Positions 44,430-54,057 of a DNA stretch of 64,000 nt are shown piece by piece. Below the pieces are notes generated by a model. That model saw only the letters and a program-made list of their open reading frames with translations. It did no database searches and had not been told where the DNA came from. This DNA is from Pedobacter puniceum (GTDB lineage Bacteria; Bacteroidota; Bacteroidia; Sphingobacteriales; Sphingobacteriaceae), in contig NZ_WKJI01000002.1 in the NCBI RefSeq assembly GCF_009674685.1, forward strand, positions 992,001 to 1,056,000. The letters run 5' to 3'. Made by a program: the position numbers and the translations under genes. Positions within the stretch are counted from its first letter, which is position 1; every line of letters starts with the position of its first letter.

Positions 44430-44894
44430 TTAAAAAGTTTCGCTATCTGGCGGGATGCCATAATCTATATCTTTTTTCTTTTTACTTTTTAGGGTAGAGT
44501 TTATCCAAGAGCTTACTTTATCTATTAAACTACTTAATGTATGTTGATTAACATTTTGTGGGTTAATAGCCCTTTGTGAGATAAGCGTAAGTACAGATTT
44601 TAAAAACAAGCCATTACCTCTTAATAAGGTTTTATTAAGTACAAATGGTACAAATATTCTTGCTAGAGAGGTAACCCAATCTGCGTTTTTAGGGCTTACA
44701 CCTTGCTGTTCTTTACTATTAAAACCTAAAAATGAACCTACTTTTTTTAAGAACTTAAAGGGAGATTTAATTGCTTCTTGAAAACTCTGCTTTTTTTCTA
44801 AGAAATAAAGCTCTTGTTCTGCTTGTTGTAAGCGTAATGTTTTTATTTGAGCTCTTAACTGTTGAAGATTCTCTATTTTAACTTGAGTTTCCAC
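44430..44894 (-). CDS. Hypothetical helical protein of a YtxH/holin-like cluster
   Basis: This 154-residue protein begins with a coiled-coil-like segment ('LQQLRAQIKTLRLQQAEQEL', residues about 9-28), then has basic and hydrophobic mixed helices; a moderately hydrophobic part near 70-115 ('ARIFVPFVLNKTLLRGNG') may dip into the membrane. I do not recognise a domain. It is the third gene of a minus-strand run with the holin-like protein (2-base gap) and YtxH protein, and the order suggests a shared envelope role. Confidence 0.65.
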   Translation of the reverse strand: METQVKIENLQQLRAQIKTLRLQQAEQELYFLEKKQSFQEAIKSPFKFLKKVGSFLGFNSKEQQGVSPKNADWVTSLARIFVPFVLNKTLLRGNGLFLKSVLTLISQRAINPQNVNQHTLSSLIDKVSSWINSTLKSKKKKDIDYGIPPDSETF

Positions 44895-44896
44895 TG

Positions 44897-45232
44897 CTAT
44901 TCCTCCTCTTGTTTCTTAAAAATTTTCTTAATCATGTTATTAATTATAGGTTTTTCTAGGTATTTGTCTTTGGTAGCATATACTAATACTGCCATTAAAA
45001 AATAGAAAAGAGAAACCAAGAAGAAGCCTCCGTAACTATTGCCAAGCAATTCTGATAAGTAAAAACCAAATGCCAGACTCACGAAAAGAAATGCAAGTAC
45101 AATGAATATAATTACTAAACCATCCGTAATTAAATTGGCGAAGAGCAGTACTCCTTTCTCTACAAGTGTAAGCTTAGCAAGCTTCATTCTTGTATTTAAA
45201 TGCTCTTTTATTTTTTCTATTAACTCTTCCAT
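44897..45232 (-). CDS. Phage-holin-family-like (superfamily III holin) membrane protein
   Basis: This 111-residue protein has two strongly hydrophobic helices (about 28-60 and 67-88) framed by charged ends, matching the 'phage holin family' (Holin-X) of cellular, non-phage genes. The Glu/Lys-rich N-terminus 'MEELIEKIKEHLNTRMKLAK' is typical. It is not part of a phage here: no endolysin or structural gene is near. In Bacteroidota and Actinobacteria these genes sit with YtxH-like stress genes, as here (42 bases after the YtxH gene, 2 bases before the helical-protein gene). Confidence 0.8.
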   Translation of the reverse strand: MEELIEKIKEHLNTRMKLAKLTLVEKGVLLFANLITDGLVIIFIVLAFLFVSLAFGFYLSELLGNSYGGFFLVSLFYFLMAVLVYATKDKYLEKPIINNMIKKIFKKQEEE

Positions 45233-45274
45233 TACTTAACGTGTGTCTGTCATTAAAAATTAGATGATTAAAAA

Positions 45275-45541
45275 TTAAGCGTGTTCCGTATCATCAGCAT
45301 ATTCATGTTCTGCTTGCTTAATTTTTGATTTTATATTACCTACAATTTTTTCCTTTAAATCTGTAAGATTATCAATTTCTTCTGCGGCTTTTTCTTTGAT
45401 ACTATCGCCTAAATTCTTTAAAGATTCAGCAAGTTTATCTCTTGTGTCTGAACCTTTTTCTGGAGCAAATAATAAACCTAAAGCAGCACCAGCAGCTAAT
45501 CCGGCTAAAAGTGCTATAACTGTTTTTGAATTCTCTGTCAT
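45275..45541 (-). CDS. YtxH domain protein (short form)
   Basis: This 88-residue protein has one N-terminal membrane segment, '[20 protein letters not shown]' (about 8-27), followed by the family motif '[20 protein letters not shown]' and a charged helix. This is the YtxH signature in its usual length. It is the promoter-proximal gene of a three-gene set with the holin-like and helical proteins. A paralogue at 12860 lacks the EKGSDTR motif, so the two are not close copies. Confidence 0.88.
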
Positions 45542-45608: not shown

Positions 45609-46652
45609 CTATGAATTTGAATTTTTGTTTTCTAAATGATTTTCTAATCTTTCTGTTGCTATGATATCTATTTCATAGATGGCAGCTAAATGTATAAACC
45701 AAGAGAGTAGCAAAGGACCAAATACTAAACCCACAAAACCAAACATGGGTATACCAATAATAACACCTATAACAGTGATGATAGGATGCGTATCAGCTAC
45801 TTTTTTATTGATGATAAAACGAATGATATTGTCTATATTGATAAGTATAGTTAGCGTAAAAATGCTTAGAAAAATAGCATTCCCCGTTTCTCCGTTTAAA
45901 AATAAAATAATGGCAGCAGGCAAGGTAATCAGTGGGGCACCAACAACAGGTAAAAATGATAAAAATATACCCAACACACCCCAAAATATGGCATCGTTTA
46001 TCCCAACAATGAAAAATGATAGACTTACCAGCATACCTTGTACTAGAGCTATTAAACCTTGACCTAAAATGTTAGAATAGGTGGTGTTTTTGAGTTCTTC
46101 TGCAAATTGTTTGGCATGATGTTCTCTTAATGGTGCATATTTTAAAAGGATATTTTCGAATGATTCCATCTCTACCAACATAAAGTAAAGTATAAAATAC
46201 ATCAGCGTAAGGGCAAGAAATATGAAAAATGCGCCTCCAACAAAAGTTGGAAATAGCTCTTGAATTAATATGGAAAGCTTATTTACGTATTTATCTACCA
46301 AATGAGGTTGATTTAACTGAAGTCCTACAAAATCATCTAATCTGGAAATTAAGGCTTTAAGTTGAAACTGATTTTGTTTTAAATCAGTTACACGATCTAT
46401 AATCATATAACTGAGAGCAAAAAAAGGTAAAATAATGATGATAAAGGATAATAAAATAACCGTTGCAGCAGCTAAATAACTCTTTATTCTTTTAGCCAGA
46501 TATAGATATAGCGGTTTGAAAATGGTGTAAATTACAATAGCGCCTAAGAAAGCAGTAAATAAGTCTCTTAAACTGTACAGTATTACCGCGGCTAAAATTA
46601 ATAGTACGATAAGAACAATAGAATTTCTTTGCTTATAAGTAAAAACTGACAT
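45609..46652 (-). CDS. AI-2E family transporter (PerM-like permease)
   Basis: This 347-residue polytopic inner-membrane protein has about seven or eight transmembrane segments. It shows the family region 'ILGQGLIALVQGMLVSLSFF' (about 195-214), 'IFWGVLGIFLSFLPVVGAPL' (about 222-241) and 'IGVIIGIPMFGFVGLVFGPL' (about 296-315). The group includes TqsA, an autoinducer-2 exporter, and sodium/proton antiporters, so the substrate cannot be assigned. It is 68 bases upstream of the YtxH cluster in transcription order and may be its first gene. Confidence 0.93.
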   Translation of the reverse strand: MSVFTYKQRNSIVLIVLLILAAVILYSLRDLFTAFLGAIVIYTIFKPLYLYLAKRIKSYLAAATVILLSFIIIILPFFALSYMIIDRVTDLKQNQFQLKALISRLDDFVGLQLNQPHLVDKYVNKLSILIQELFPTFVGGAFFIFLALTLMYFILYFMLVEMESFENILLKYAPLREHHAKQFAEELKNTTYSNILGQGLIALVQGMLVSLSFFIVGINDAIFWGVLGIFLSFLPVVGAPLITLPAAIILFLNGETGNAIFLSIFTLTILINIDNIIRFIINKKVADTHPIITVIGVIIGIPMFGFVGLVFGPLLLSWFIHLAAIYEIDIIATERLENHLENKNSNS

Positions 46653-46730: not shown

Positions 46731-47720
46731 TTATTTTGCTTTAGTTTGAGGAACAACTAATGCACAACCTGCACCATCTACTTTGGTGCCTACTGGTGTT
46801 CCAGGGCACTTATCTAGGTGGTCAGCAACACCATCTCCATCGGTATCTTTTTTAAGATCTTGTACATCTTGCTCTGCTGTAGAAGTACGAGTTTTTAACT
46901 TGTTAACATCTTCACGTAGTTTTGAATCGTTAAGCTCATCATACATGGTAGCTACTGGATTAGCCCAAGTTAAATTTGGTTTGCTTTTAGAACCTAAAGA
47001 AAATTCTAAACCAGCATGAGTGTATGAAAATTTATCTTTAGAATTTTCTTTAGCAGAATTAGCATCTAGATTATCCGCATCTAAGAAATTCATAGTATAC
47101 CCTAAGTTAAAGCTTACCAATTCAGAAACTTTGAATTTTGCGCCAACACCTACAGGTACATAAGCACTCTTTATAAAATCTTTATCGCCAGAAGCACCAG
47201 AAACACCTTTCCAATCTATAATTGCATTAGCTTGGTTTACATAGCTAGGAGCGTAACCTAAGACACCTAAACCAGTAGAAACACTAAAGTTTAGTGCATT
47301 TTCTCTTTTAAGGAAATCAACAGTAGCTACGTTAGCAACACCTCTTAAATCTATTCCGAAGCCTATTTGTGTTTCAAAAGATCTGTAGTTGCCTACTCTA
47401 CCGCCTGGTGCATCAGCATTATTACCTGATAAATCACCAAAAAAAGCATTAGCTTGTAAGCTGAAAGAATGTGCAACTTGTTTGTTTAGGCTTAAACCAT
47501 ATCCAAAGTTAGCATCCCAATTGGTAAAGTCATTTGAACCTCCTGTTAATACAACCGGAGTTAAAGCTCCAGCATTAACACCTACAGACCAAGTTCTGTA
47601 TTGACCTCTGCCGCCAAAAGTTTTTGCTGTAGACATTTTAGTATCTTGAGCAAGAGCTACAAAGGTTGTTGATGCAAAAAGCGTGTATAATGCTAAAAAA
47701 TTTTTAATGTTTTTTCTCAT
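46731..47720 (-). CDS. OmpA-like outer membrane beta-barrel with thrombospondin type 3 repeat, no peptidoglycan-binding domain
   Basis: The start is ATG 47720 (MRKNIKNFLALYTLF), which opens a signal peptide ending VALAQ; an upstream start at 47741 is less likely. Residues about 30-240 are a beta-barrel with many aromatic-Gly strands ('TWSVGVNAGALTPVVLTGG', 'AGLEFSLGSKSKP'). A coiled linker ('LREDVNKLKTRTSTAEQDV') leads to one calcium-binding type 3 repeat, 'DTDGDGVADHLDKCPGTPVG'. In full-length OmpA proteins a ~110-residue domain follows, but here the protein ends 18 residues later. The barrel is probably functional without it. Confidence 0.85.
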   Translation of the reverse strand: MRKNIKNFLALYTLFASTTFVALAQDTKMSTAKTFGGRGQYRTWSVGVNAGALTPVVLTGGSNDFTNWDANFGYGLSLNKQVAHSFSLQANAFFGDLSGNNADAPGGRVGNYRSFETQIGFGIDLRGVANVATVDFLKRENALNFSVSTGLGVLGYAPSYVNQANAIIDWKGVSGASGDKDFIKSAYVPVGVGAKFKVSELVSFNLGYTMNFLDADNLDANSAKENSKDKFSYTHAGLEFSLGSKSKPNLTWANPVATMYDELNDSKLREDVNKLKTRTSTAEQDVQDLKKDTDGDGVADHLDKCPGTPVGTKVDGAGCALVVPQTKAK

Positions 47721-47789
47721 CTCTATTATTTTAATTTGCAATGTTAATAAATTTCTTGATTATAATATGCTAAATAATAAAAAATTTAA

Positions 47790-49250
47790 TTATAAAGCAT
47801 CCCATAAATTTATTTGTTTACTTACAGGTATTGAAATAGCGAAGGTAGAACCATTTGCTGAAGTATCCTCTAAGCTAATTTTACCTTTATGATTCAAAAG
47901 AATTTTTTGAGCATTTGCTAAACCCATACCTAAGCTTTTTGCTTTATGGGTGAAAAATGGCTCAAATATTCTTTTTTGGTCTTCTGGTTGTACTCCGCTT
48001 CCATTATCAGAAATAAGTATTTCTACTTCATTATTTTTTACTGCTGTTTTTACTGATATATAGTTTGCACCTGCCTCTATAGCGTTGATGAAAACATTTT
48101 GTAAAGCTTGTAAAATTTGTTCCTCATCAACATCAACCATAATATCAGTAGTATTGAAGTCTTTATCTATTTTTAACGATTGGTGAGTTAACTCATCTTC
48201 TGTTTTGATAATGCTCTCTTCTAGAATATGGTTGATAACTTTAGTTTGAATATTAAGTTCTCTGTTTTGTGTAGAGCTAACTAAATTAGAAACTAATAGG
48301 TTAATCTTATCAAAATTTGTTTTTAAGATGTTTAAATAAAGATTGATGGTTTCATCATTTGTATTTAAATCAAGCTTAAGTTGTTCTAAGGATAAGTTGA
48401 TGTTAGATAAAGGATTTCTTATTTCATTTGATAAGCCTTTAACAATTCTTTCTGTTACGGCTAGCTTTTCAATATCTACAATAGCTTTTTCTTCTTTTTT
48501 TCTATTGGTGATATCATGGATGATACAGTAATAAAGCTCTTGTGTGGCGTGTTGGTCTATTTGTAAAAAGGCCGATATGGCTACTGTTCTTATTTCTTTC
48601 TCTTTGGTGATGAGCTGGGTTTCAAAATCATTAACAGAACCTTTTTCATCCATTTGCTGAACAAATTGGGTATTATCTTTACGGTTAAGGTATAAATCAA
48701 CACCTTTTATGAGCTCAAGTTCTTCTCTGGTGTATTTGAAAAATCTTAAACCAGCTTCATTAATATCTCTAATGGCACCAAAAGAATCTATAATTACAAA
48801 TGGTTCTTTAGAGCGCTCAAAAATAATTTTAAACTTGTTTTCACTTTCTTTTAACGCTTTTAAGGCTAAAGTATGTTTTAAAGCATATCGTATAGAGCGT
48901 TCTATAGTGTAAGGGTCTATTTTATCTTTGATAAGATAATCTGCTGCACCAATTTGTAAAGCTTCGTCATCTACTTTAGAATCACCTTTTCCTGTTAAGA
49001 TGATAATAGGTTCTCCAACGTTAGATTTTATAGCTTCTTTCAGCAAATCAATACCAGTATATTTACCCAAACGATAATCTACCAGGTAGATATCATAATG
49101 GCTCTTGAGCATGGCATTAATACCTTCTTCATAGTTGTTAATCCAGCTTAACTGATATTTTTCTTTTTGAGGAATATCGTTAAATATTTCTTTGGTAAGG
49201 ATGTAGTCATCCTCATCATCATCTATTAATAATACTTTAACAGGCTTCAT
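47790..49250 (-). CDS. Receiver-PAS-histidine-kinase-like protein with His-to-Asn substitution
   Basis: This 486-residue cytoplasmic protein has three parts. An N-terminal receiver (residues 1-125) has Asp pocket 'IDDDEDD' and phosphoacceptor Asp58 in 'YLVDYRLG'. A PAS domain covers about 138-255 ('SKEPFVIIDSFGAIRDINEA'). A kinase-like core has the dimerisation helix 'IVKGLSNEIRNPLSNI', where the phosphoacceptor His expected in the 'xHEIRNPL' position is Asn275 (codon 48426-48428). The ATPase domain is otherwise intact: N box 'NVFINAIEAG', G1 'DNGSGV', F box 'FEPFFTHK', G2 'GMGLANA'. Without the His it probably cannot autophosphorylate in the usual way; it may regulate partners or act as a phosphatase. 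Last gene of the signalling operon. Confidence 0.9.
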   Translation of the reverse strand: MKPVKVLLIDDDEDDYILTKEIFNDIPQKEKYQLSWINNYEEGINAMLKSHYDIYLVDYRLGKYTGIDLLKEAIKSNVGEPIIILTGKGDSKVDDEALQIGAADYLIKDKIDPYTIERSIRYALKHTLALKALKESENKFKIIFERSKEPFVIIDSFGAIRDINEAGLRFFKYTREELELIKGVDLYLNRKDNTQFVQQMDEKGSVNDFETQLITKEKEIRTVAISAFLQIDQHATQELYYCIIHDITNRKKEEKAIVDIEKLAVTERIVKGLSNEIRNPLSNINLSLEQLKLDLNTNDETINLYLNILKTNFDKINLLVSNLVSSTQNRELNIQTKVINHILEESIIKTEDELTHQSLKIDKDFNTTDIMVDVDEEQILQALQNVFINAIEAGANYISVKTAVKNNEVEILISDNGSGVQPEDQKRIFEPFFTHKAKSLGMGLANAQKILLNHKGKISLEDTSANGSTFAISIPVSKQINLWDAL

Positions 49251-49261
49251 ATTATTATCAT

Positions 49262-49669
49262 TTATCCGTATGATTTGATTAAATCTCCGGCAATTTTTAT
49301 CATATCTTTAAATTTATAGGGTTTAGTAATAAAATCACTAGCACCTAGTTTTAGGCTTTCTATTTTTTCTTCTTCGCTTTTAGAAGTAGTAAAAATTATA
49401 ACCGGTATATTTTTGGTGTTTTCATTAGCTTTAATAAAGGCTAATACCTCATGTCCGTTTATTTTAGGCATATTCAAATCCAGCAAAATAAGATTTGGCC
49501 TTAATTTAATGCGTTTCTTTTTTAAGCTTTCAATAACTTTTTCGCCATCCTCAAAAAAAACTAAAGGCTTGGTATAATTAACTTCCTCAAAAGCTTCTTT
49601 AAGCATTAATCTATCGTCAGGGTCGTCCTCTGCAATCCAAATAGTACTATTTATTATTTTTTTACTCAT
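49262..49669 (-). CDS. Single-domain response regulator (CheY/Rcp-like receiver)
   Basis: This 135-residue receiver has the acidic pair in 'IAEDDPDDR' (12-20), phosphoacceptor Asp64 in 'ILLDLNMP', a Thr in 'VIIFTTSKSEEE' and Lys in 'FITKPYKFKD'. There is no output domain, so signals must be passed by protein contact. The PDD/'NMPKINGHEVL' style resembles Rcp-type receivers often linked to PAS or phytochrome kinases. The ATG at 49669 overlaps the kinase stop by 4 bases (coupled translation), and 11 bases separate it from the next gene. Confidence 0.93.
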   Translation of the reverse strand: MSKKIINSTIWIAEDDPDDRLMLKEAFEEVNYTKPLVFFEDGEKVIESLKKKRIKLRPNLILLDLNMPKINGHEVLAFIKANENTKNIPVIIFTTSKSEEEKIESLKLGASDFITKPYKFKDMIKIAGDLIKSYG

Positions 49670-52485
49670 GAAGCTTTGTAAGGTAAAATGATGGTGAATA
49701 ATGTGCCTTCTCCTGGTTTACTATCAGCTTGTATAAAACCATCGTGTTTCTCAACTATTTTTTTACAAACAGCTAATCCAATACCTGTTCCCTCGTATTC
49801 ATTTCTGGTATGTAATCTTTGGAAAAGTGCAAATATTTTATCGCCGTATTGAGGGTCGAAACCTATACCGTTATCTTTAATTTTAATAACACAGTAATCT
49901 TTGTTGGGATAAACTCCTGGTATATGAAGTAAAGAACCACTTATTATTTCAGATTTTACTTCTATTACCGGAGCAATATTTTCTCTACTGAATTTAATAG
50001 CATTACTAAATAAATTTTGGAAAAGCTGTCTAATTTGCCCAGGTATTGCTTTTACGGTATGGTTTACCATCATATCTATGGTAGCGCCTTTTTTCTCTAT
50101 AGCAAATTCAAGATTTTCTAAAGTCATTTGTATTTGCTCATGTAGATCTACCTCTACAAAACCTTCGTCTCCGCGGGTAACCCTAGAATAGGTAAGTAAA
50201 TCATCAATAAGAGTTTGCATTCTCTCTGATGCACTTTGCATCCTTTTTATGTAATCTAAACCTTCTTCAGAAATTTCTTGGGCATATTTGTTTTGCAAAC
50301 GGTCTCCAAAAGCTCTTATCTTTCTTAAGGGTTCTTGTAAATCGTGAGAGGCTACATAAGCAAATTGTTCTAAATCTTGGTTAGACCTATTTAACTCATC
50401 AACCTTAGATTCTAAATCTTTTTGTGCGGCTTTAATCTCAGAAATATCATGCTTTACCACCATCACACTAAAAATTTCTCCTGCTACGTTTCTTACCGGT
50501 ACGTAGTCTATCTTGTAAAAACGATTATTCTCTTCTTTTTCAAAAGATACTTCTAAACCTGCAAATGCTTTATCGAGAGATTTTTTAATTTTTGATGCTA
50601 GTTCATCATGATATAAATCAGGTAGAAAAATACCAGTTTGTGGTTGGGTTTTAAAGTTTAAGTCTTTAACTATTGGGCCATCTAATAAGATTAATTTGTA
50701 ATCTTTATCAAACATCATCACAGCAGAATCTGGAACATTTTTGGCAATAGTTTTATAAATACTTTCTGTTTTTTCTAATAATATGGTTGTGTTTTTAAGC
50801 TCTGTAATATCCTGAATGGTACCTAAAACTTTTATGGCCTCGGTTTTTTTATCGATGATAATTTTTGCTGTTCCATACAAGAATCTAACCTCTTTATCTG
50901 GTTTAATAATACGGTACTCAATAACAAAGTTACGCTTCAGATTAAAAGCTTTTTCTACTGTAGATTCGCATCTTTTAAGGTCTTCTGGATGAATTAAGGT
51001 TTTATAAAAGCCAAAATCTAGTTTAATATTTTGTGGGTCTAAGCCGTGTATCCTATAAAGTTCATCAGACCAAAAAATAGAAGAAGAGCCTTGATTCCAT
51101 TCAAAACTTCCATTATGAGAAATTGATTCTGCTTCTTTTAAAATGGCCTCATTTTGTTCTAGTTTAAATGTGGCTTCTTTAAGTTTGGTCACATCAAGGC
51201 AGGTGCCTATAATTTTGTTCTCTGTTTGGATATACTGTCCTTTTATTTGTAAAAAGCGCTGTTTCGATGTATGATGATCTGTAATTTGATACTCTAACTG
51301 AAAAGAACCTTGAGTTTTGATACAGTTTTGTAAAGCTTGTTTGAAGTTGTTTTTATCATCATCCTGAAAAAGGTGAAGAATAGCTTCAAGAGTTGGCTGG
51401 GTTTGTTGTGGATTTAAATTTAAAACGTGGTATAGTGCATCAGACCATATCATCTTATCGGTAGTTGTTTGCATTTCCCAACTACCCATATTAGCCATAG
51501 ACTCGGCATATTTTAGCAAATTTTGTCTGCTTTCTAAGTTTTGCTGTATTTTCTTTTTTTCCTGTATCTCTCTATCTAATTTTAAATTAGTATGGTGTTG
51601 TTTAGAGATGCTTCTTGAATAGTTTAGGCTAATTCCTGTTAAAGGAATAAAATAGGTTATTAGCCTTAAAAACTGCGCAACATTATAATTAGCATCAAAA
51701 GGAAAGGTTGAAATAGACATATGTACGGCTGCAAAAATTGCAGGAATCATACTTAAAACTAAAAGTTGCGAAAATATACTAGGGTAGGTTTTTATCACAT
51801 TTGGCATGATAACCGAACCCCATAAAAAGAATAATCCTATAATTATTAATTCTGTTGGATGTATCAGAAAAGAATTGCTGGTTTTAAGTAGATCTGGTAG
51901 AGTTTTTACTGTAAGTAGAAAGTATATTACAGTTACAGTTATAATAGCAAATATGAGTGTTAAACTTTGCAATAGTTTAACTTTTTGCTCTATTTTTCTG
52001 ATGGTTTTAGTTTTAACAACTAGGATGAGTCCTGTACCTACAATTAAAAATGTAACTTGTAGAATCCTACTAGCAAACCATGTAATATAAAGTGCATCTG
52101 TATCATTAATGGCTAGTTGAATTAAATCAGCGGCAACTATAAGATGTAATAAGTCTATCATTGCTGTGCAAAGTAGTACTAGGCCAATAATGGGGGCTGC
52201 GATATCTTTTTTAACCTTAAAATCAATTAAAGTTAAGATGCAGGTAAATAATCCGGTAGCAACACTAAATAATATCCAAGCTGTATTAAATGCTTTGCCA
52301 ACATTCATATTTCTGTGGATAGTATTGTTTTCAAAAGATATGATATGATAGCCAAGTAAATCAATATCAAGCCTTAAAACTGAAAGCATGAACGGAAAAA
52401 TACATAGCGTAAATATTGCTATGAAATACGGAATAGGGATATCAAATCCTTTTCTAGATTTTAAAAATGAGAGGTTAGAAGTCAT
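49666..52485 (-). CDS. Membrane PAS-domain sensor histidine kinase
   Basis: This 939-residue kinase starts with seven or eight hydrophobic helices (about 17-290) resembling a MASE-type membrane sensor, with 'YITWFASRILQVTFLIVG' near 133-150. A short coiled coil (about 300-325) and several PAS/PAC modules follow (about 330-680; e.g. 'YQITDHHTSKQRFLQIKG', 'GTIQDITELKNTT', 'VMVVKHDISEIKAA'). The dimerisation domain has phosphoacceptor His714 in 'YVASHDLQEPLRKIR' (codon 50344-50346). The ATPase has 'NLFSNAIKFS', 'DNGIGFD' and 'GTGIGLAV'. Unlike the neighbouring kinase-like protein, its catalytic residues are intact. It is two bases from the NtrC-type gene. Confidence 0.93.
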   Translation of the reverse strand: MTSNLSFLKSRKGFDIPIPYFIAIFTLCIFPFMLSVLRLDIDLLGYHIISFENNTIHRNMNVGKAFNTAWILFSVATGLFTCILTLIDFKVKKDIAAPIIGLVLLCTAMIDLLHLIVAADLIQLAINDTDALYITWFASRILQVTFLIVGTGLILVVKTKTIRKIEQKVKLLQSLTLIFAIITVTVIYFLLTVKTLPDLLKTSNSFLIHPTELIIIGLFFLWGSVIMPNVIKTYPSIFSQLLVLSMIPAIFAAVHMSISTFPFDANYNVAQFLRLITYFIPLTGISLNYSRSISKQHHTNLKLDREIQEKKKIQQNLESRQNLLKYAESMANMGSWEMQTTTDKMIWSDALYHVLNLNPQQTQPTLEAILHLFQDDDKNNFKQALQNCIKTQGSFQLEYQITDHHTSKQRFLQIKGQYIQTENKIIGTCLDVTKLKEATFKLEQNEAILKEAESISHNGSFEWNQGSSSIFWSDELYRIHGLDPQNIKLDFGFYKTLIHPEDLKRCESTVEKAFNLKRNFVIEYRIIKPDKEVRFLYGTAKIIIDKKTEAIKVLGTIQDITELKNTTILLEKTESIYKTIAKNVPDSAVMMFDKDYKLILLDGPIVKDLNFKTQPQTGIFLPDLYHDELASKIKKSLDKAFAGLEVSFEKEENNRFYKIDYVPVRNVAGEIFSVMVVKHDISEIKAAQKDLESKVDELNRSNQDLEQFAYVASHDLQEPLRKIRAFGDRLQNKYAQEISEEGLDYIKRMQSASERMQTLIDDLLTYSRVTRGDEGFVEVDLHEQIQMTLENLEFAIEKKGATIDMMVNHTVKAIPGQIRQLFQNLFSNAIKFSRENIAPVIEVKSEIISGSLLHIPGVYPNKDYCVIKIKDNGIGFDPQYGDKIFALFQRLHTRNEYEGTGIGLAVCKKIVEKHDGFIQADSKPGEGTLFTIILPYKAS

Positions 52486-52487
52486 TA

Positions 52488-53918
52488 TTATTCTAGATTA
52501 ATAGCTTTCATTTTGTTATAAAGCGTTTTCCTATCAATATTTAAAAGTTTGGCTGCTTTAGTTTTATTGAAATTTACTTCTTTAAGTACTTTTAAAATGG
52601 TTTCGTATTCTGCCTCTAAGGCTGCATTTTTTAAATCTAGTTTTTTCTCTCTTCTACCTTCCCCACCTCCTGATGGTTTGTCTAAAATGGTTTCTAATGC
52701 TGATATTTTTGTGAAGGTTGAAATTTCTAATGGTAAGGCTTTTAAAAGGATATAATCTCCCTCAGTTAACAGAACTGCTCTACGCATAACGTTCTTTAAC
52801 TCTCTAACGTTACCTGGCCATGTATAAGTAAGTATACATTCTTCTACCTCTTCACTAAAGCCTTTAACATCTCGGTTAAGTTCTGCATTTGCTGCGTTTA
52901 GAAAGTGTTCTGCAAAAATTAAGATATCTTTTCCTCTTTCTCTTAAGGGAGGCATATAGATTCCAAATTCATTAAACCTGTGATATAAATCTTCTCTAAA
53001 TTTACCTTTAGATATAGCATCAATTAAGTTTTCATTGGTAGCAACAATAATTCTTACATCAAGGTCTATTTCTTTAGTAGAGCCAATTCTTTTTACTTTT
53101 CTTTCTTGTACCGTTCTTAATAAAGCGGCTTGTATTTCGTAAGAAAGGTTTCCTACTTCATCTAAAAATAGTGTGCCACCATTTGCCATTTCAAAGTGAC
53201 CAATTTTGGTGTATAATGCGCCAGTAAAAGAGCCTTTCTCATGCCCAAAAAACTCTGATCCTGCCAATTCTTTAGTTAAAGAACCGCAATCCATCGCAAT
53301 AAAAGGTTTGTCTCTTCTATTACTTTTCATATGGATACTTTTAGCAACCGATTCCTTACCTGTTCCACTTTCTCCTATTAAAATAACGCTGTAATTGGTA
53401 GGAGCCACCAATTCTATCTGCCTCATTAGTTCTTTAGCGGCAGTACTTTGACCTATTACATATTCATCAAAACTTCCTGAAGTTTTTTTAGCCTCTTTTG
53501 TTTTAGGGGTTTCTTCTGCAATAGTAGAAGGATTGTCTAATTCTTCATTTAAAGCTTGTTGAGTTTCAATAGCTTTATTGATGGTGTTGAGAATCTCATC
53601 TGGATAAAGAGGTTTGGTTATATAGTCATAGGCACCCATTTTAATGAGCTCTACAGCTAATTTTATATCAGAATAACCTGTAATAATGATAACACCTGTT
53701 CTTGGATAAAGTAATTTGATTTTTTTTAATACTTCTCGGCCATCTGTATCTTCCAACCTAAAATCGCAAAGCACAAGGTTAAAAGTTTCTTTACTGAGGA
53801 TATCAAAGGCTGAAGTTCCTGAAGTAGCAGTCTTTATTTCAAAACCATTTCTTGATAGAAATTTAGAGAGAAGTAACCCAATGTTAACTTCATCATCAAC
53901 GATTAGTATTTTTTTCAT
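52488..53918 (-). CDS. Sigma-54-dependent response regulator (NtrC family)
   Basis: From ATG 53918 (MKKILIVDDE) the protein has 476 residues; a longer start at 53942 adds eight non-conserved ones. The receiver carries phosphoacceptor Asp52 in 'LVLCDFRLED'. The AAA+ domain has Walker A 'GESGTGKE' (182-189), the sigma-54 contact loop as GSFTGA (229-234, a Ser variant of GAFTGA) and Walker B 'GGTLFLDEVG' (247-256). A Fis-type helix-turn-helix ends the protein ('AAKLLNIDRKTLYNKMKAIN'). It should activate sigma-54 promoters when phosphorylated, likely by the kinase encoded next. First gene of the four-gene operon. Confidence 0.95.
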   Translation of the reverse strand: MKKILIVDDEVNIGLLLSKFLSRNGFEIKTATSGTSAFDILSKETFNLVLCDFRLEDTDGREVLKKIKLLYPRTGVIIITGYSDIKLAVELIKMGAYDYITKPLYPDEILNTINKAIETQQALNEELDNPSTIAEETPKTKEAKKTSGSFDEYVIGQSTAAKELMRQIELVAPTNYSVILIGESGTGKESVAKSIHMKSNRRDKPFIAMDCGSLTKELAGSEFFGHEKGSFTGALYTKIGHFEMANGGTLFLDEVGNLSYEIQAALLRTVQERKVKRIGSTKEIDLDVRIIVATNENLIDAISKGKFREDLYHRFNEFGIYMPPLRERGKDILIFAEHFLNAANAELNRDVKGFSEEVEECILTYTWPGNVRELKNVMRRAVLLTEGDYILLKALPLEISTFTKISALETILDKPSGGGEGRREKKLDLKNAALEAEYETILKVLKEVNFNKTKAAKLLNIDRKTLYNKMKAINLE

Positions 53919-54057
53919 ATCTGTATTTACTTGCCAGAACAAGAAACCATCAAGCTTCTTTTAAGCGAATATAGATATTTATTTTAAATGGGAAAATAAT
54001 TCTACATAATTAATTTTAATTATAGTAAAATTAATTCATATGATAGATAAAATCATA

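Follow-up and report, generated by a model that had tools for sequence, protein, structure and literature searches.

A Pedobacter puniceum pseudo-histidine kinase from a sigma-54 regulator locus: loss of the phosphoacceptor histidine, protection of the ATP pocket and a possible NifL-like role

The window analysed here, a 64-kb stretch of the Pedobacter puniceum genome, contains at 47790..49250 on the minus strand an intact reading frame for a 486-aa protein with the REC-PAS-DHp-CA domains of a histidine kinase and Asn at the phosphoacceptor position. This gene lies directly downstream of three others on the same strand, in line with a preliminary description that placed receivers beside it and named the sigma-54 regulator as a possible recipient of its signals. 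The first encodes an NtrC-type sigma-54 response regulator (REC-AAA-HTH, 52488..53942), whose nearest curated families are AtoC and ZraR and whose receiver keeps D16, D17, D60, and K110 at 57 of 57 loci, including those that lack an adjacent kinase gene. The second encodes a 939-aa sensor histidine kinase (49666..52485) with PAS domains, its own His (in SHDLQEP), and a MASE3-like membrane part scoring just below the cut-off; this membrane kinase is the likely phosphodonor for the receivers. The third encodes a stand-alone receiver of 135 aa (49262..49669, Pfam Response_reg), for which many relatives have a homologue at the same locus. Genes in the order kinase, receiver, REC-PAS-output protein are also met in cyanobacteria and other phyla (L207-L213, L223-L243), the output being a kinase or, in Marinobacter, a GGDEF-like domain.

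Downstream, again on the minus strand, are genes for an outer-membrane-like protein with a TSP3 repeat and weak similarity to PorG of the T9SS (46731..47741), an AI-2E family transporter (45609..46652), and YtxH-like, Holin-X-like, and 154-aa proteins (44430..45541), the transporter and the last three being conserved neighbours. In most sampled Sphingobacteriaceae, the AI-2E, YtxH, Holin-X-like, and 154-aa genes stay linked to the sigma-54 regulator even where all the kinase genes are missing; this set may be the regulon of that regulator or form a shared envelope-stress unit with it. A sigma-54 promoter scan of the 64-kb window returned four matches against 4.7 expected, and a plasmid search gave no match.

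Pfam assigns to the 486-aa protein a receiver (Response_reg, residues 6-109, 48924..49235), a PAS_9 domain (149-248, 48507..48806), a HisKA domain (268-323) at 24.7 bits, just below the cut-off of 26.9, and an HATPase_c or CA domain (375-477, 47820..48128). An AlphaFold model built with 44 natural relatives as input (mean pLDDT 86) contains the receiver, the PAS domain, a DHp helical hairpin (helices 248-294 and 300-327, 48270..48509), and the CA domain, with residue 275 inside helix 1; at a pTM of 0.56 the relative placement of these domains is less sure. The receiver has a phosphorylatable Asp58, an acidic stretch at D10-E13, and K108, and in a 44-sequence alignment of the protein and its relatives D11, D12, D58, and K108 are invariant. 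In the CA domain, the N, G1, F, and G2 boxes required of a functional HisKA kinase are all present (N389, D415, G417, G419, F429-P431, K436, G441, and G443), and the ATP-pocket residues are intact.

The other requirement of a functional HisKA kinase, an acceptor His in DHp helix 1, is lacking. Asn275 (codon AAT, 48426..48428) is embedded in IVKGLSNEIRNPLSNI, and the flanking E276, P280, and L281 do not vary among 44 relatives with and without the His. In the alignment to ZraS (9jfj), the best PDB match by sequence, AHEIRNPLSSI of ZraS pairs with SNEIRNPLSNI of the 486-aa protein, setting N275 on the ZraS His; with the invariant flanks, this makes the register certain. Residues 248-327, which span DHp helices 1 and 2, hold no other His, and phosphotransfer through this protein is therefore not expected. 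Nor is Asn275 background, as 48 of the 49 HisKA matches in the P. puniceum genome carry the His and the 486-aa protein is the sole exception. An assembly error is ruled out by the occurrence of Asn in relatives at 57-86% identity. Thus the preliminary description read the sequence correctly on each of these points: Asn275 in place of the phosphoacceptor, an N-terminal receiver with Asp58 followed by a PAS domain, and a complete set of ATP-binding boxes.

Orthologues were assigned by locus, using the set sigma-54 regulator, kinase, receiver, 486-aa-type gene, and AI-2E transporter/YtxH genes. Within the genus, 11 of 17 other genomes have an orthologue, and Asn is found at position 275 in all 11 that retain the region, including one with its ATPase domain deleted (G017) and one with a broken reading frame (G001). 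The frameshifts of G001 (L069, G001:C1:2847000-2860600, a single-contig assembly) affect four genes of the locus in the same assembly, so we rejected them as a sign of decay and regard them as probably sequencing error. In other genera, the site is E or D (g14 Pedobacter, g13, and g7), K (g12), or L (g7) in same-locus orthologues, and shorter versions across the family have N, R, E, or D. The conservation of Asn275 that the preliminary description proposed to examine thus holds within the genus but not beyond it, and the conserved feature is the absence of His rather than Asn itself.

His occupies the site in g8, g24, and Solitalea (g5) and in 36 of 36 more distant aligned relatives (Cytophagales, Chitinophagaceae, Saprospiraceae, Solitalea, and others), typically in the motif AHEVRNPLTNI. 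Many His-bearing orthologues show the matching gene order of sigma-54 regulator, kinase, (receiver), and 486-aa-type gene, which indicates that His is the ancestral state and rules out that the locus-matched relatives are mere paralogues. By the preliminary description, relatives with His would have meant that only one strain had changed or that the motif had been misaligned. Such relatives do exist, but at a distance and in a pattern of old, lineage-wide loss. In a tree of the sigma-54 regulator all His-less loci fall in one clade (SH-aLRT 91), and both g8, which has His, and the outgroups branch outside. Judged from these sequences, the loss of the acceptor His took place within Sphingobacteriaceae, and the clade shows no later return of it; a single loss fits the tree, while the quick tree method and some unsettled inner branches leave room for more than one. 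With the kinase fold kept, the acceptor lost, never His in any full-length member of the clade, and the loss fixed in the lineage, the 486-aa protein is a genuine pseudo-histidine kinase. Its ATP pocket is intact, and it could in principle be a cryptic kinase that uses another acceptor residue; this reading we consider very improbable, as the side chains found at residue 275 (N, E, D, K, L, or R) have no chemistry in common. A candidate acceptor does occur in the main Pedobacter clade g14, where His268, seven residues before the lost one, is conserved (L037-L045, L047, L050, L052, and L053); others have Arg there, among them the 486-aa protein of P. puniceum, which has no His in its DHp.

Among 28 His-less full-length proteins, no variation is seen at N389, D415, G417, E430, P431, K436, G441, and G467 and very little at G419 and G443, and the mean entropy of the chosen ATP-site columns is 0.28 against 1.82 for the CA domain, a value as low as which was reached in 0 of 20000 random draws. 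The DHp of these proteins keeps P280 and L281, and E276 in 27 of 28, but has any of five different residues at position 275. As dN/dS was saturated for most pairs, domain ratios at equal divergence were used instead. Relative to REC and PAS together, the median divergence ratio of the DHp rises from 0.26 in 12 His-bearing pairs to 0.51 in 11 His-less pairs, all of them non-overlapping (p=0.02), and that of the CA domain from 0.50 to 1.18 (p=0.006), where the p-values are only indicative since the pairs were hand-chosen and differ in depth. The ratio of PAS to REC divergence is unchanged between the two sets. The DHp and ATPase domains thus evolve at about double the pace of those in relatives that have the His. 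The kinase core is relaxed but its ATP pocket protected, behind REC and PAS input domains that remain fully constrained.

Such a pattern could be read as that of a relic in which only the REC-PAS part is functional, as a phosphorylation-dependent sensor or adaptor, while the kinase core decays and is being trimmed. The relaxation of the DHp and CA but not of REC and PAS favours this, as does the record of deletion among members of the His-less clade. G017, a congener of P. puniceum, lacks the ATPase domain, as do g20, g2, and g25; a pair of g20 genomes encode REC-PAS-only versions of 260 aa that lack the DHp (L067 and L068), suggesting that in some lineages the retained function may lie in REC-PAS rather than in DHp docking. 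In several lineages the ATPase domain, the partner kinase, or the entire pseudo-kinase gene has gone; in many g14 and all sampled g21 genomes the interval from the sigma-54 gene to the AI-2E/YtxH genes contains no sizeable reading frame of the family. The gene is absent from many genomes that retain the sigma-54 regulator and is thus dispensable. The receiver Asp58 has also been lost in one g2 and one g25 genome; in truncated versions with this loss (L064 and L066) Ser or Tyr replaces it, and receiver and kinase parts are both "pseudo". Nevertheless, we consider the relic reading unlikely, because the ATP-pocket residues are invariant while identity in the surrounding CA domain drops to about 35-60%, CA dN/dS is about 0.12 between close relatives (with dS high), and most truncated forms keep the DHp, which in g3 and g15 is all that survives. 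The preliminary description took the conserved ATPase as an argument against simple decay; this stands to the extent that the pocket is kept wherever the CA domain is, but the relaxed DHp and CA, the repeated CA deletions, and the repeated gene losses make decay part of the history.

The DHp can also outlast all other domains. Two genera that branch just outside the His-less clade, g3 and g15, have directly after the sigma-54 gene a stand-alone HisKA-only reading frame of 62-76 aa (L078-L080 and L098-L104), keeping nothing of the protein but the DHp. This mini-DHp has no ATPase domain and carries His but Gln for Pro (HDIRNQLSNI). It matches the DHp of the 486-aa protein (with BLASTP E values as low as 4e-12 and a profile probability of 99%) and hardly that of the neighbouring membrane kinase, which rules out its being a fragment of the latter; it is possibly a phosphotransfer, docking, or phosphatase mini-protein.

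Phosphatase activity must also be weighed for the 486-aa protein itself. Phosphatases of the HisKA type have Thr or Asn at H+4, four residues after the acceptor position, and the 486-aa protein has Asn279 there (48414..48416, role from PMC3510030), as do 21 of the 28 His-less full-length orthologues. The H-box of CrdS from Myxococcus, LAHEIKNPL, is near-identical to that of the 486-aa protein, and CrdS H371A retains phosphatase, with a CrdA~P half-life of 2.6 min versus 53.5 min for CrdA~P alone; N375, at H+4, is the one residue this activity needs (PMC3510030). By this precedent phosphatase activity is possible in the 486-aa protein, and it might be a dedicated phosphatase in which Asn279 positions a water molecule and which, gated by REC, PAS, and nucleotide, dephosphorylates the sigma-54 regulator or the stand-alone receiver. 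In the other 7 of 28 orthologues, however, H+4 is Asp, and the N375D change leaves CrdS with neither activity (PMC3510030), which makes binding a likelier function than catalysis for the family as a whole. In addition, E276, whose CrdS counterpart is needed only for kinase activity (PMC3510030), is the better conserved residue, and DivL, the best-studied relative in kind, has no phosphatase (PMC4211667). We regard a dedicated phosphatase as improbable, on a par with the relic.

A role beside the membrane kinase is a further alternative, in which the pseudo-kinase would act like DivL (PMC4211667), reading a phosphorylated receiver and altering the activity of its neighbour by contact. The kinase gene is adjacent and the two are often kept or lost together. 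This is nonetheless the less credible option, and distinctly unlikely, given that the pseudo-kinase gene occurs with no adjacent kinase in L058 and L064-L068, that G047 (L081) has the kinase and receiver but no pseudo-kinase gene, and that the fixed Tyr and weak ATP binding of DivL contrast with the variable residue and strict ATP pocket found here.

The explanation we favour, to which we give about an even chance, is that the 486-aa protein is a nucleotide- and receiver-gated, non-phosphorylating brake on the co-encoded sigma-54 regulator. In this model the protein would be unable to autophosphorylate or hand on phosphate; the neighbouring membrane kinase would phosphorylate its receiver, and REC~P, a PAS ligand, and bound ATP or ADP would together set the conformation of the DHp-CA unit. 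By docking, as its ancestor did, on the sigma-54 regulator's receiver, the DHp hairpin would hold the regulator back through contact rather than phosphate donation, much as in NifL-NifA and DivL-DivK~P; with Asn279 in place, docking may also dephosphorylate it. The sigma-54 regulator is the presumed target because of the operon in which the gene lies, its family relationship, and the survival of the DHp; the direction of control is presumed as well. The clade-wide His-less state, the orthology of the locus, the protected ATP pocket, and the survival of the DHp alone in two genera count in favour of the brake, and the dispensability of the gene and the REC-PAS-only versions count against it. 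Extended to the family, our proposal is more tentative and somewhat doubtful: after one acceptor loss, a Bacteroidota kinase may have become a nucleotide-gated, NifL-like controller of an NtrC-type regulator, with all stages of dismantling extant (full length with no His, no ATPase, REC-PAS only, gene lost) and with the ~65-aa DHp of the sister branch serving as a receiver-docking or phosphotransfer mini-protein.

Pseudo-histidine kinases as such are already known, and those we found described are mostly isolated cases (DivL and the experimentally selected ChrS). In the open-access literature we found no description of this pseudo-kinase family, its stepwise loss in Sphingobacteriaceae, the mini-DHp, or Pedobacter pseudo-kinases. 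With an ancestor, the loss of the His, and graded descendants in one syntenic locus, the fate of a kinase core after losing phosphotransfer becomes testable by comparison. Domain annotation would label these His-less proteins kinases, and NifL-style control of a sigma-54 response regulator is possible in Bacteroidota.

Among known systems, ZraS and AtoS share the PAS-HisKA-CA core, are the best curated and PDB sequence matches, and have as regulators the ZraR and AtoC that the neighbouring regulator resembles. The 486-aa protein differs in having Asn for His, an N-terminal receiver, and no membrane sensor, and it scores far below the NCBIfam equivalog cut-offs (AtoS, 165 bits versus 646; ZraS, 123 versus 479). 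Taken at the level of sequence, these comparisons show that the ancestor of the 486-aa protein was a kinase of the ZraS/AtoS (NtrB-like) class that had the REC-PAS-HisKA-CA domains with the His and shared its locus with a sigma-54 regulator, and the ancestral substrate was probably that co-encoded regulator. LvrB, a hybrid response regulator at ranks 11-16 in the fold search, likewise has a receiver before its kinase core, but identity is only 18%. DivL of Caulobacter, offered as the analogy in the preliminary description, is also a pseudo-histidine kinase; its acceptor His is replaced by Tyr550, and it binds a phosphorylated receiver and, weakly, ATP (PMC4211667). The analogy holds for the missing His but not for the fixed residue, since Tyr is constant there and N, E, D, K, L, or R is found here; moreover, the ATP pocket is strictly kept here, the protein has its own N-terminal receiver, and the phylum is different. 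NifL, whose complex with NifA (9qq6) was among the fold-search matches, is a kinase-like PAS-H-GHKL anti-activator of the sigma-54 activator NifA; its GHKL domain binds ADP/ATP, and it inhibits NifA by nucleotide-dependent contact, not phosphate transfer (PMC9866876). The 486-aa protein is likewise a PAS-H-GHKL protein encoded with a sigma-54 activator, with an additional REC and a receiver-type regulator rather than NifA as its neighbour. Unlike it, Azotobacter (A. vinelandii) NifL retains the His, NifA has a GAF domain in place of a receiver, and anti-activation here would be by analogy. Nevertheless, NifL-like control of a sigma-54 activator fits the locus at least as well as the comparison with DivL.
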